This document shows, in pieces, positions 4,096 to 36,863 of a DNA stretch of 46,081 bases. The stretch lies in IMG/VR virus record IMGVR_UViG_3300009181_000124, positions 1 through 46,081 of that record, one strand, 5' to 3'. How positions within the stretch are numbered: position 1 is the stretch's first letter; every line of letters starts with the position of its first letter. The stretch comes from a virus. The position numbers and the translations under genes were made by a program. The notes under the pieces were generated by a model. The model was not told where the DNA came from, ran no database searches, and saw only the letters and a program-made list of their open reading frames with translations.

Positions 4096-4428
4096 CTACC
4101 TATACACACCATCGAACCTTTTTCTCATTGTTTCATCAAATAGTATTGTTCCAACCATCTTGATATATTTATCAGCAAGTTTCCCTATCCACTTCATATC
4201 TCTCCAACTCATTTTTTGCCCTTTCAATGGTTCTTTTCTTGCAACAAATTGTTTTTGTCTATCAGACCATTTAATGAGAAAAAGTTCTTTGTTAAACTCT
4301 ATTACCGAGCCTACAAAAATATCGTTTCCGTTTGCGTCTTTAATTCCAATATCCTCACCCGCCCTGCACATAACAGCACCTTGTTGCAATGCGGGGCTTT
4401 TCGGTTCATTCAAATTTTGTTCTTCCAT
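4096..4428 (-). CDS. Cassette 3 gene: YopX-like protein, 110 residues
   Basis: The central part resembles YopX-family phage proteins: IGIKDANGNDIFVGSVIEF matches their (T/I)GLKDxNGxxIYxGDIV block, followed by a beta-rich segment (LFLIKWSDRQKQFVARK) and a C-terminal stretch (YIKMVGTILFDETM) that recalls the family's xxVIGNIYENPxL end. Family members are small proteins of unknown function in phages and mobile elements. The first 18 or so codons lie inside the outer arm of attC3, so the attC hairpin is partly coding. A start at the internal Met (MCRAGED) is possible. It is one of seven cassette genes, all on the minus strand. Confidence 0.7.
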   Translation of the reverse strand: MEEQNLNEPKSPALQQGAVMCRAGEDIGIKDANGNDIFVGSVIEFNKELFLIKWSDRQKQFVARKEPLKGQKMSWRDMKWIGKLADKYIKMVGTILFDETMRKRFDGVYR

Positions 4429-17700: not shown

Positions 17701-18546
17701 TTATACATTTAATGTTTTATTCCATGCGGCAATATGTAATCTTGTCATACCTCTAAATTTATATTTCTTTGCCATTTCTAATGTAAATCTAGTGCGCTCT
17801 TCAAAATTCTTTACATCATCCAACCCAGGCATACAAACTACATTTGTAAGCGGTATTTTAAATGGTTCTACGAAGTCTTTAAATAATTCTTTGACATCGT
17901 CTTCAGTTGAAATAACAAACTTAAATTGATAGTTATTATGTTCCATAATACGTTTAATCGCATCTGGATTAATACGTTGTTTTTCTGTCATACCTGAGTT
18001 TGATAATTTGGGTGAACAGTTGATTTGATTAATCAATAAAAACAATTCATCTCCTATATATTGTGTACCATTTGTTTCTATTTCATTAAAAGGTGTCCAT
18101 TCATGAAATGAAGTTCCATACCATTCTACATTATGCCAATGTCCAAAAAAATGTTTTATTGCTTCTTGATGTTTAGGTAATGTTGGTTCTCCACCTGTCC
18201 AAATGATGTGAACATCACCATTTCTAATATATTCATAGATATCTTGTTCTTTCCATTGATCAATTAAGTATTGAAAGTCTTTATCTTCACCTCTCCACAA
18301 CCATTGAGACGTTGAGTCACAAGTCCAAGATGCTTTACCTTCTAATTCTAAGTCACCTTTGAACACTTCACCATCTTCTAGTGATTTTTCCTTTAATAAT
18401 TTGTTTGTGAATGCTCTTGACATACCACAGTTTAAATTACATAAACCTAAACGAACGAAGTATGATAGGACCCCTGATGATATTCCTTCTCCTTGGCAAG
18501 AAAAAAAGTCGCTGCTTATTAATAATTTATCTGATTTTATTGACAT
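17701..18546 (-). CDS. queE: 7-carboxy-7-deazaguanine synthase QueE (radical SAM)
   Basis: Radical SAM enzyme that rearranges 6-carboxytetrahydropterin to 7-carboxy-7-deazaguanine. The N-terminus has the substrate-binding FFSCQGEGISSG and the radical SAM cysteines Cys36 and Cys40 (RLGLCNLNCG). The third cluster Cys is Cys76 (SWTCDS), displaced by a 35-residue insertion. The SAM-binding IIWTGGEPTLP and the EIETNGTQ block follow. The usual short CxxxCxxC is therefore stretched, as seen in some QueE subfamilies. A 45-residue ORF overlaps its start by 10 nt, and class I promoter 18946-18977 lies upstream of the unit. Confidence 0.93.
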   Translation of the reverse strand: MSIKSDKLLISSDFFSCQGEGISSGVLSYFVRLGLCNLNCGMSRAFTNKLLKEKSLEDGEVFKGDLELEGKASWTCDSTSQWLWRGEDKDFQYLIDQWKEQDIYEYIRNGDVHIIWTGGEPTLPKHQEAIKHFFGHWHNVEWYGTSFHEWTPFNEIETNGTQYIGDELFLLINQINCSPKLSNSGMTEKQRINPDAIKRIMEHNNYQFKFVISTEDDVKELFKDFVEPFKIPLTNVVCMPGLDDVKNFEERTRFTLEMAKKYKFRGMTRLHIAAWNKTLNV

Positions 18547-21423: not shown

Positions 21424-22371
21424 CTATAGAATTTCAAATTTTTCTCCTGTAAATTCTTCTTCTATTCTAATAGCATACTCTTTAACAAAATCCCAAGATA
21501 CTAATGTTCCATCTTCTTCAGCATATTGTGATGGATCTTCTAATCCTAATTTGGTAAAACTAATTATACGTTCAATACTAGCACCTGATTTGTAATCACT
21601 GTACCATACTCCTATTCCTGGAGTAGATTCTGTTAATCCTAATAATTTTGTTTTTTCTTCATCTTTAACAAATATAGGAATATAACTAGTATTAGTACGT
21701 TTATAAATTTCTTTATAATCCAATCCTAATTTTTCACAGCATTCAATTCCATCTTTTAATACTCCAGTTTTATCAGTAATATTATATGGGGCATAATAAT
21801 CTACTTTTTCAGAATCCCAATTACCTATTTTAAATGCATGTTCAAGAGCAATTTTAAATTCTTCTGAACAATCTGGGTATATTCCGCTTTGTTTTTTATT
21901 ATCAAAATCACCCATGTGAGTTCCTAATGCTATTTTACATGATTCTCCTGTTTTTTTAGCAATAGATAATGCAACAGCATAAGTAATTGATGCAAATATA
22001 GCATTTCTGTTTGGAACTACAGTAGTTAAAGCATTTTCATGTGCATAATGTCCTGTTTTGAGTTCCATAGAATTATTATCAACTAATCCACTTACTAATA
22101 GTTGACTTAAACCATCTAATTTGATGATTTGATGATTTACTTTAGAATATACTTCACCAAATCCACCAGGTGCTCTGTCTGCAGGATAAATTCTAAGTAC
22201 ATTTGAGTTAATGTACTTTACTAAGTCAACTGCTCTTTCCAATTCTACTTTATGTTTTTGCCCATAGTCAAATGATAGAGCTGTCACTTGATATTCATTG
22301 GCTAGTAGGTGAAGTAACAGTGTACTTGAATCCATACCTCCACTTAAACTTAATACTGCTTGTTTTTTCAT
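21424..22371 (-). CDS. queC: QueC-like 7-cyano-7-deazaguanine synthase lacking the zinc cysteines
   Basis: QueC converts 7-carboxy-7-deazaguanine to preQ0 with ATP and ammonia. The PP-loop SGGMDSST (10-17), the ALSFDYGQKH block, VVPNRNAIFASI and ALGTHMGDF are all present. The C-terminal zinc site (Cys ... CGxCxxC) found in QueC enzymes is missing: the aligned region reads NTSYIP and WYSDYKSGASIERIISF, with Ser, Tyr and Gly in place of cysteines, while the following GLEDPSQY is kept. At 315 residues it is longer than typical QueC (about 230). It may be a phage subfamily with altered stability or reaction. It is in the same unit as the DpdA-like gene. Confidence 0.9.
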   Translation of the reverse strand: MKKQAVLSLSGGMDSSTLLLHLLANEYQVTALSFDYGQKHKVELERAVDLVKYINSNVLRIYPADRAPGGFGEVYSKVNHQIIKLDGLSQLLVSGLVDNNSMELKTGHYAHENALTTVVPNRNAIFASITYAVALSIAKKTGESCKIALGTHMGDFDNKKQSGIYPDCSEEFKIALEHAFKIGNWDSEKVDYYAPYNITDKTGVLKDGIECCEKLGLDYKEIYKRTNTSYIPIFVKDEEKTKLLGLTESTPGIGVWYSDYKSGASIERIISFTKLGLEDPSQYAEEDGTLVSWDFVKEYAIRIEEEFTGEKFEIL

Positions 22372-34947: not shown

Positions 34948-36234
34948 TTACTGTAATAGCGCCATTGCACCATAATTTTTTCCTGTGGTTAATTTAACTT
35001 TTAGTTTGTGTTTTTCAAACACTTGTTTAATGTCTTCTAATATATTTTCTTCTTCACTGTAGTCAAGCAATATTGAATCATAAGTGTACAATACTATTTG
35101 TGTCTTTTTACCTTTCAATATTTTTACAACATCCCATATGATACGAACGTTAGTTGACGTTTCCAAGTTTTGAAGCGTATAGTTAAACAGTTTTTGTGGA
35201 TTTATGTCTTTTAAGTCAGTGGTGAATTTGTGTCCTGAAATTGGACATTCAACGTAACCGTTACTTGTAAAATCACTCCACAACTTATTTACATGTTCTT
35301 CAATTAGTTGGAAGTATTCAATATATTGATATTCCTTGTACACTCCTCCATATAACTGTCTAAACATTAATGTCTTTGCTTCACTAATGTCTATGCCTGC
35401 TTTCTTTGCAAAGTACTCATACGGTGTGACACTTCCAAAATCATAGTTTACTAGTTGAGCTGCTAGAGTTGGATGATAAGAACTTATGTCTATTTCAATA
35501 AAGCAGTCATTTTTAGGAATAAACGATTTTCTACTGCCATTGTCTTTTCCTAATGCTGCAAAATTGATGCCATTAAAACTATTGGAAGGCCGTCTGGTTG
35601 TAGTGTACAAATTATACTTGGAATAAACTGTGTTATTTTGTATAAAAAACGCTTCATTGTTGATTTCAAAATGTTTATCGAATTCATATTTGTCAATTTT
35701 TAAACCGTTTCTTTCAATTGAAAAAAATGCGGTTGTTAATTTATTTAAAAACTTATTGTTGTCTGACTTAACGCAGTAATTTTTTACTTTATCATATATT
35801 AACTCACATTTTTCATAATGTTTAACCACTGGAATGATTGTGTTTATGTTTGTTAAGTCTCCTTGTCTTTGATAAAAGAAATCATGTGCTGAAGTTGAGG
35901 GTTCAACATAGTCAGGTGTTGTAAAAGATATGTCTACTAAATTGTTTAGTGGGAAGAAGTATATAAATGTTTTTCTGTCTCTAACATATATTTCATCATA
36001 ATCAGCGAGAATCTGCGTTATAGGTGTTTTGTTCAACAAAAGCGTCTCAGTATGGTCAAGACATAATATATAGCCTTTATCGCCGTTTAACGGCTTGATG
36101 TACAGTAAAGATAATTCATTTAATGCGGGGTGAGTGTGATCATTATGAAGTATAAGTTCAACAAACACTTTGTTGTACTTTATATTAGAAAATTCTTTTA
36201 ACTGTTCATCAGTCTCTACAATATAGAAAGCCAT
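34948..36234 (-). CDS. Divergent family A DNA polymerase-like protein, 428 residues
   Basis: The C-terminal half carries recognisable but altered family A motifs: the segment TTRRPSNSFNGINFAAL (compare TGRLSSxxPNLQNIP), motif A FIEIDISSYHPTLAAQL with catalytic Asp, motif B AKTLMFRQLYGGVYKEY, and motif C LYTYDSILLDY, where the usual His-Asp-Glu is Tyr-Asp-Ser. Both metal-binding Asp residues are kept. The N-terminal half (FVELILHNDHTHPALNELSL) looks like a decayed exonuclease domain. The phage also encodes a family B polymerase, so this may be a specialised repair or accessory polymerase, or an inactive relative. It has its own class I promoter (36253-36284). Confidence 0.72.
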   Translation of the reverse strand: MAFYIVETDEQLKEFSNIKYNKVFVELILHNDHTHPALNELSLLYIKPLNGDKGYILCLDHTETLLLNKTPITQILADYDEIYVRDRKTFIYFFPLNNLVDISFTTPDYVEPSTSAHDFFYQRQGDLTNINTIIPVVKHYEKCELIYDKVKNYCVKSDNNKFLNKLTTAFFSIERNGLKIDKYEFDKHFEINNEAFFIQNNTVYSKYNLYTTTRRPSNSFNGINFAALGKDNGSRKSFIPKNDCFIEIDISSYHPTLAAQLVNYDFGSVTPYEYFAKKAGIDISEAKTLMFRQLYGGVYKEYQYIEYFQLIEEHVNKLWSDFTSNGYVECPISGHKFTTDLKDINPQKLFNYTLQNLETSTNVRIIWDVVKILKGKKTQIVLYTYDSILLDYSEEENILEDIKQVFEKHKLKVKLTTGKNYGAMALLQ

Positions 36235-36252
36235 TTATAACCTTTATTTACT

Positions 36253-36284
36253 TAAATATACTAAAAAATACTTAATAAGCCAAG
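36253..36284 (-). promoter_or_regulatory. Class I promoter for PolA-like unit
   Basis: The sense strand reads CTTGGCTT-N16-TATATTTAAGT, 18 nt before the ATG at 36234 and directly after the terminator at 36291-36326. Confidence 0.8.
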
Positions 36285-36290
36285 TTAAAA

Positions 36291-36326
36291 GAAAGCACCC
36301 TAGATAGCGAGTCGTGGGGTGCTTTC
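36291..36326 (-). terminator. Strong rho-independent terminator of the late tail/lysis unit
   Basis: The sense strand has a perfect 10-bp stem GAAAGCACCC / GGGTGCTTTC with a 16-nt loop, followed by TTTT. It ends the unit whose last gene is the endolysin. Confidence 0.88.
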
Positions 36327-36357
36327 ATAGCCGAAGCTATAACGGTCCTAAGTCCGT
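36327..36357 (-). ncRNA. Structured RNA element with UUCG hairpin and 23S-rRNA-complementary 16-mer
   Basis: Just upstream of the terminator the sense strand contains ATAGC-TTCG-GCTAT (5-bp stem with a UUCG tetraloop). Overlapping its left side is CTTAGGACCGTTATAG (36337-36352), exactly complementary to the CTATAACGGTCCTAAG of helix 69 in bacterial 23S rRNA (the I-CeuI site core). Complementarity to a universally conserved rRNA hairpin is unlikely by chance. Whether it is a small RNA, a 3' UTR element or a relic is unknown. Confidence 0.45.
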
Positions 36358-36362
36358 ATGTT

Positions 36363-36863
36363 TTAGTCTAAATCAACATATGTTGTTTTAGTTATAAATT
36401 TTTTACTGTTGTAAAGTTTAAGTAAATCTACAATTGATTTACTGTGTGTTTTTTGAAAGTGAGGAGCATCATAAAACTTCCAGTCGCCACCCCATTCCCA
36501 TCCATATCTTTTAAAAATTGCTACAATTTCCATCCAGTCTGCTGTTTTATCTTGATCAAAGTCTGACTTAACGTCCCACAATGCTGATTCATAAGATCCA
36601 TTTTTATCTTTGTCTACTAACAATACTATGTCAACTGCTAAGCCATAGTTGTGATATGATTGTCCTCCTTTTGCTTTTGTAACTTGAGGACGAGCATTAA
36701 ATAAAGCATCCTGCTCTGCAAATGTTCTTAGTGTATATGAAAATCTACAAATGGCTTTACCTGTTAAGGCTGCTTTAATTTCTTGATAAATTAGTGTTGC
36801 CTCATCTCTTAGTTTAGGATGCAGTAATTTTATTCTGTCAATGGTTGGTTTATCGTCTGTCAT
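36363..36863 (-). CDS. Endolysin: M15 peptidase (L-alanyl-D-glutamate/VanY type)
   Basis: Probable peptidoglycan peptidase for host lysis, related to the T5-type M15 endolysins. The 166 residues show RTFAEQDALFNARP, the zinc block GGQSYHNYGLAVDIV (His71, Asp78), and GWEWGGDWKFYDAPHFQ with the third ligand His135. No signal peptide is present, so a holin is needed (candidate at 13562-13777). It lies at the end of the baseplate block and overlaps the upstream gene by 4 nt. A second M15-type protein lies 600 nt upstream. Confidence 0.88.
   Translation of the reverse strand: MTDDKPTIDRIKLLHPKLRDEATLIYQEIKAALTGKAICRFSYTLRTFAEQDALFNARPQVTKAKGGQSYHNYGLAVDIVLLVDKDKNGSYESALWDVKSDFDQDKTADWMEIVAIFKRYGWEWGGDWKFYDAPHFQKTHSKSIVDLLKLYNSKKFITKTTYVDLD

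Follow-up and report, generated by a model that had tools for sequence, protein, structure and literature searches.

A conserved family of structured phage RNAs with loops complementary to the H69-H71 region of 23S rRNA

The stretch of DNA analysed here, referred to as the window, is a virus record of 46,081 bases with a G+C content of 31%, and its main genes lie on the minus strand. Between an endolysin gene and a gene for a protein of unknown family, this strand carries an element of three hairpins (HP1 to HP3) spanning approximately 70 nt at 36287-36357. The element, its parts and its two neighbours are as follows:

36363..36863, minus strand: M15-peptidase endolysin, upstream of the element, with its stop codon 5 nt before HP1
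36342..36357, minus strand: HP1, stem ACGG/CCGT (36354-36357 with 36342-36345) and loop ACUUAGGA at 36346-36353
36346-36351, minus strand: UUAGGA in the HP1 loop, complementing 23S 1923-1928
36337..36352, minus strand: 16-mer CTTAGGACCGTTATAG, which complements E. coli 23S 1914-1929 exactly
36327..36340, minus strand: HP2, stem ATAGC/GCTAT with a UUCG tetraloop
36291..36326, minus strand: HP3, 10-bp stem GAAAGCACCC/GGGTGCTTTC and loop CACGACUCGCUAUCUA, which here doubles as the terminator hairpin
36303..36310, minus strand: core of the HP3 loop, UCGCUAUC, complementing 23S 1929-1936 with one G-U at G1930
36287..36290, minus strand: U-run UUUU after HP3, the tail of an intrinsic terminator
34948..36234, minus strand: 428-aa protein of unknown family, downstream of the element

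Elsewhere in the window, a phage protein (14901-16073) has a C-terminal type IX secretion sorting domain, which suggests a Bacteroidota host. In addition, QueE-like (17701-18546) and QueC-like (21424-22371) genes are present, suggesting that the phage carries 7-deazaguanine modification in its DNA.

The original prediction placed at this site a 16-nt complement to 23S rRNA on the gene-sense strand, next to a UUCG-capped hairpin. Both are there: CTTAGGACCGTTATAG at 36337-36352 complements E. coli 23S (rrlB) 1914-1929 with 0 mismatches, the flanking genes are also on the minus strand, and the UUCG hairpin is HP2 at 36327-36340. For reference, rrlB 1914-1937 reads CTATAACGGTCCTAAGGTAGCGAA. The predicted span, 36327-36357, takes in HP1 and HP2 and misses the third hairpin at 36291-36326. 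The match had also been called improbable by chance, and this was overstated: approximately 0.10 matches to an rRNA 16-mer are expected given the size and composition of the window, as estimated from 60 order-1 Markov copies and, in agreement, from a uniform formula. The 16-mer alone is therefore weak evidence, so relatives had to decide, and it is conservation that lifts the element above chance. Rfam 15 gives no match in the window at the gathering score, and at 36200-36420 only sub-threshold ones.

Four scans combined yield 154 elements in 50 sequence clusters. The first pattern, which avoids true 23S by the base following ATAG (C in the element, whereas antisense 23S has T), matched 42 viral stretches. 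With HP1 left free there were 86 stretches, with HP2 and HP3 free 118, and with both loops free 48. Chance rows were dropped before counting: L117 of the 42 (a reading-frame end), 12 of the 86, 11 of the 118 and two of the 48. UUAGGA is present in 74 of the 86 matches found with HP1 free, and the other 12 are the chance rows, which have no features of the element. Similarly, UCGCU is present in 105 of the 107 elements found with HP3 free; the exceptions are L269, where UUGCU forms a wobble opposite G1935, and L224, which has an inverted loop. When both loops were free, 46 of the 48 matches were still elements. Here, HP1 reads UUAGGAC in 39, UUAGGGC in six (A to G opposite U1923, a wobble) and has a shorter loop in one, and UCGCU is found in 45 of the 46. 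Across the clusters, UUAGGA in HP1 and UCGCUAYY in HP3 are fixed, and the stems change with their pairing kept. Conservation in related phages was the ground on which the original prediction could have failed, and the comparison came out in the element's favour. In L224 (270-350), the inverted loop (ATAGCGATA) sits in an intact terminator stem, as if flipped.

The structure of the element was analysed using 146 elements in 48 clusters, from which 48 representatives were taken; L269 and L224 are not among the 146. The HP1 stem has at least 4 bp in all 48 representatives. It is mostly ACGG/CCGU, with ACGA/UCGU in two of the 48 and AUACG/CGUAU in another two, and the loop ends in, or contains, UUAGGA. 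The HP2 tetraloop is UNCG in most relatives and its stem varies by subfamily. HP3 has 48 distinct stems among the 48 representatives, each closing on a loop with UCGCU. RNAalifold on a MAFFT alignment of 47 of the 48 (L220 was omitted for length, and kept in the scripts) returned no consensus pairs. Because this alignment has HP2 in two registers and does not bring the HP3 stems into line, a permutation approach, in which the 3' arms are dealt to other members, was used to assess covariation instead. The mean longest helix in HP3 is 10.3, as compared to 7.1 or less in 200 permutations, and that of HP2 is 3.96, against a maximum of 3.40 in 200 permutations. As the stems are lost when the arms are exchanged, variation is tolerated in the stems and not in the loops. 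The element has a conserved RNA secondary structure with covarying HP2 and HP3 stems.

Placed in rRNA order, the HP3 loop UCGCUAYY and the HP1 segment UUAGGACCGUUA complement one contiguous stretch of 23S. We take this site to run from the 3' side of H69 over the linker into the beginning of the next helix, that is, the H69-H71 junction. At the three HP3 positions that the scans left unconstrained (opposite 1929-1931), the 50 clusters provide 150 cells, comprising 108 Watson-Crick pairs, 37 wobbles and five broken pairs. Pairing is preserved by G-U wobbles in 37 of the 42 non-Watson-Crick cells (P 3e-13 against one third and P 0.001 against two thirds, treating the cells as though they were independent, although they are not). 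A G-U opposite G1930 is present in 10 of the 50 clusters.

Duplex predictions bear on the same site. With the HP3 loop and HP1 block joined, the target is the best site in E. coli 16S and 23S for 48 of 48 representatives, at a mean of -30.0 kcal/mol versus -19.6 for shuffles. The HP1 block by itself ranks the target best in 45 of the 48, and the HP3 loop by itself in 31. A scan with the whole element singled out the site by the preset criterion in 0 of 48, since gapped duplexes ran on; in 23 of the 48, the best site began at 23S 1881-1892 and ended by 1936, a region in which 0 of 36 shuffles fell. The CCGU strand is needed both by the HP1 stem and for pairing with the target, so the two compete. 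The element has a conserved complementarity to a target encoded elsewhere and, on these predictions, it is well supported that its loops would pair with 23S at H69-H71.

A relic of captured rRNA was among the readings offered by the original prediction. In the element, the order of the blocks is permuted relative to rRNA, with HP1 first and HP3 last, and so it is not a copied rRNA fragment. The blocks are not collinear with 23S, and the stems that hold them are unrelated to it and covary. A chance match, with 0.10 expected per window and the 16-mer alone not very rare, is contradicted by loop conservation in 50 clusters and by a second block that continues the same 23S stretch. A captured-rDNA relic or a coincidence is thus barely credible as the origin of the element.

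The element is single-copy in all 22 pattern-matching records, including those of 100-325 kb; 26 records were searched, and the four that do not match hold a variant excluded by the pattern. A same-strand ORF (the longest candidate being taken) is found within 300 nt upstream of 135 of 146 elements, and these ORFs belong to 32 families. In 110 of the 135, the distance from the upstream stop to the element start is between -6 and 30 nt. Neighbouring genes include those for tail tube, terminase and baseplate. In L120, L133 and L246-type loci, the upstream proteins begin with a motif like MKKxELxxIIxEEI. Several large viruses carry the element within tRNA arrays: in L132 the space from tRNA-Glu to tRNA-Val is taken up precisely by the element, which has no U-run, and in L119, L148 and L239 it lies less than 10 nt after a tRNA. 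One element-carrying viral contig (L163:8589-8938) also encodes a predicted tmRNA with the tag ANVDYSTEYYAVAA.

A U-run of at least four follows HP3 in 44 of the 48 representatives. The four that have none (L127, L132, L148 and L239) are all in tRNA arrays and keep both loops. The U-run and the proximity to upstream stops (110 of 135) are what would be expected of a cis-acting 3'-end module, an elaborate terminator or mRNA stabiliser for which the 23S complementarity is secondary. Such a module would not explain one copy per genome, 32 upstream families, the tRNA-array members that lose the U-run and keep the loops, or conservation that resides in the loops and not the stems, making it very improbable. 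A terminator and nothing more was rejected on the single copy (22 of 22), the fixed loops and the loss of the U-run in tRNA arrays, and it leaves HP1 unexplained. Instead, the single copy, varied neighbours and location in tRNA arrays argue for a trans-acting RNA, which may sometimes be freed by tRNA processing.

In the phage group of the window, the 428-aa protein adjoins the element often but not always. Among 31 viral loci with a relative of this protein, L009 and L010 have the element before the gene for it and a different gene upstream. In L033, the endolysin is 93% identical in amino acids to that of the window and the element is absent at that site, so that it behaves like a movable cassette. 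The element is also missing at the corresponding place in the close relatives L002 and L004-L008. From these absences, it is either dispensable in such phages or has moved.

A second form, in which the complement is contiguous, was found by a scan for a contiguous complement with U opposite G1930. This gave 20 stretches, of which L305 was dropped as a chance row; L125 was assigned to this group. Nineteen of the 20 share TTTCGCTATCTTAGGACCGTTATAG, 25 nt antisense to 23S 1914-1938 with one G-U. This form is a putative small RNA gene in a separate phage group, at 19 viral loci. A -10 box (TATAAT or TATACT) is present in 19 of 19 at one of a few upstream distances, a count that has no shuffle control, and L309 and L310 have a promoter-like pair. 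A terminator-like hairpin lies downstream in the listed sequences, and an FmdB-like zinc-ribbon gene lies upstream in the three loci examined. The two forms differ in structure and in neighbours, and they are likely to be of independent origin. Requiring C opposite G1930, followed by a non-T base, in a scan for the contiguous antisense gave 0 matches.

Separately, a Deltaproteobacteria MAG contains 23 nt exactly antisense to 23S, TCGCTACCTTAGGACCGTTATAG (L160, ~4150-4172, minus strand; G026:C39:108150-108171). The stretch is outside the rRNA genes, near an ORF named by eye as signal-peptidase-like, and it is absent from the 32 other genomes of the G026 family that were searched.

The predicted duplex of the contiguous form with 23S has an energy of -54 to -65 kcal/mol (three loci). 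A duplex of this length could recruit RNase III or another nuclease to 23S, so that the RNA would be a guide for rRNA destruction and break host ribosomes. The three-hairpin form provides two short helices and no long duplex, and the G-U opposite G1930 in 10 of the 50 clusters is a further point against a guide of this kind, which we regard as improbable.

Metagenome contigs are the source of nearly all loci of the element. Among 50,697 phage records, a query of the window's type found the element only in one 735-kb uncultured phage (two records), and a subfamily query found none. In the phage records, the contiguous-form query matched 20, each carrying the one mismatch that true 23S would give; several of them are annotated as 23S. 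The element was not matched in plasmids, and the seven matches of a bacterial genome scan did not include an element. In 395 genomes from the phylum of G025, there were 23 places in 21 genomes, none of which, read by eye, has the sequence of HP1 or HP2. The 24-nt target is exact in 24 of 61 genomes of this phylum; the others may lack assembled rRNA genes or differ. The open-licence PMC papers covered contain no phage or bacterial RNA antisense to 23S H69-H71 that we could find, an absence that weighs little given this scope. The elements form a real and conserved family of phage RNAs, one that appears not to have been described before.

In archaea and eukaryotes, natural RNAs with guides that complement rRNA are known as box C/D and H/ACA guide RNAs; the element belongs to bacterial viruses. 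Neither class fits. A C box (RUGAUGA) is present in 0 of the 48 representatives, a D box (CUGA) in six and both in 0, and an ACA 3 nt from the 3' end is found in 0 of 48 (manually trimmed sequences).

T4 RNA D (species 2 RNA; L311:1554-1672) is a stable phage RNA that, as the element does in several viruses, lies with tRNA genes, at the end of the tRNA cluster of T4. GUCGCUA forms the loop of its best-conserved hairpin, which yields UCGCUACC, the sequence of the HP3 loop, in nine of nine T4-like sequences. Only 8 nt complement the target, which 2.2% of shuffles equal, and the longest 23S complement in this RNA is at another place (9 nt at 890-898). UUAGGA is absent from the printed sequence of T4 RNA D. 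Homology was rejected, as UCGCUACC alone is shared and, across eight further T4-like phages, there is no conservation of a second segment, AAGGAAUU, that seemed complementary. T4 RNA D is a statistically weak lead and not a relative of the element.

The trans-encoded antisense sRNAs of bacteria and phages, some of which are covered by a review (PMC12197685), are likewise short, structured and either intergenic or from 3'-UTRs, with complementary loops and a 3' terminator. The phage sRNAs described there act on mRNAs or other sRNAs, whereas the complement of the element is 23S rRNA; the word "rRNA" does not occur in the review's main text. A man-made counterpart is a PNA against helix 69, which is reported to inhibit the growth of E. 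coli (Kulik et al. 2017, as cited in PMC7038079). It is antisense to the same 23S helix, and the phage RNAs extend further 3', through the H69-H71 junction. Of the phage proteins that target ribosomes, PhiKZ014 is reported to be bound to the host 50S early in infection (PMC10914614). It is a protein located at the central protuberance, whereas the element is an RNA directed at H69-H71.

Of the three readings in the original prediction, a small RNA that would bind ribosomal subunits or rRNA precursors has fared best. The rRNA-complementary loops on varying stems, the single copy, the tRNA arrays and the contiguous form all point to it. No observation points to a decoy for a nuclease directed at rRNA, though it is conceivable; the RNA is antisense to rRNA and not a copy of it.

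We propose, with a little more confidence than doubt, that the phage encodes the element as a structured RNA that acts in trans and pairs with 23S H69-H71 on free or immature 50S subunits, thereby delaying maturation or blocking joining. Here, an RNA of ~70 nt would be transcribed and set free, either from a tRNA array or from a transcript's 3' end, and would then base-pair with host 23S at the H69-H71 junction (E. coli 1914-1937), with HP1 (UUAGGA and the following CCGUUA) and HP3 (UCGCUAYY) lying side by side on the contiguous sequence UAACGGUCCUAAGGUAGCGA. Cryo-EM work reports that H68/69 and H71 are flexible in pre-50S particles, that a flexible H68 is incompatible with 30S association and that the docking of H68 comes late in 50S assembly and limits its rate (PMC11260487). 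Binding to a free or flexible 50S, in which H68-H71 is undocked, could delay 50S maturation or block 30S joining. The phage may in this way lower or retune the supply of host ribosomes during infection.

The late, rate-limiting docking of H68 (PMC11260487) would also suit an assembly helper, an RNA chaperone that holds H68-H71 open and speeds or steers late 50S maturation, as proposed for the protein YjgA. Pairing through two loops could be reversible, but the near-perfect 25-nt antisense of the contiguous form seems too stable for this role, and we give a helper about the same small chance as a guide for destruction. Somewhat less unlikely, though still doubtful, is a protective or modification-blocking clamp on H69-H71 that shields it from a host rRNA toxin or masks H69 sites, favouring phage translation. 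It shares the same pairing evidence, and U1915 and U1917 would be inside the duplex. Helix 69 is a known point of attack, as Ribocin of P. aeruginosa is reported to cut eukaryotic ribosomes there (PMC13189344), and several element-carrying viruses have many tRNA genes and so invest in translation. The stretches that were read link no partner toxin or modification system to the element, and a stable antisense duplex over an intersubunit bridge should hinder translation unless removed. An RNA that delays 50S maturation or blocks subunit joining remains the preferred reading.

Phages act on host translation via proteins and their own tRNAs. The mirroring of a universal 23S stretch in the loops of phage RNAs suggests that host ribosomes can also be gripped or blocked directly by RNA. 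It is conceivable, although we hold it to be slightly less than an even chance, that unrelated phage groups have independently evolved two RNA forms that grip ribosomes via H69-H71 and that orphan RNAs of tRNA clusters, perhaps including T4 RNA D, act alike. Because the highly conserved target has the same sequence in E. coli, a single RNA could function in different hosts. If this is true, phages would possess a novel type of weapon or regulator, an RNA directed at rRNA itself, and with it a natural mechanism of RNA-on-rRNA takeover or ribosome control. Small RNAs of phage tRNA arrays that now lack an explanation would gain a concrete hypothesis, and antisense antibacterials directed at helix 69 would have a natural counterpart to be modelled on.
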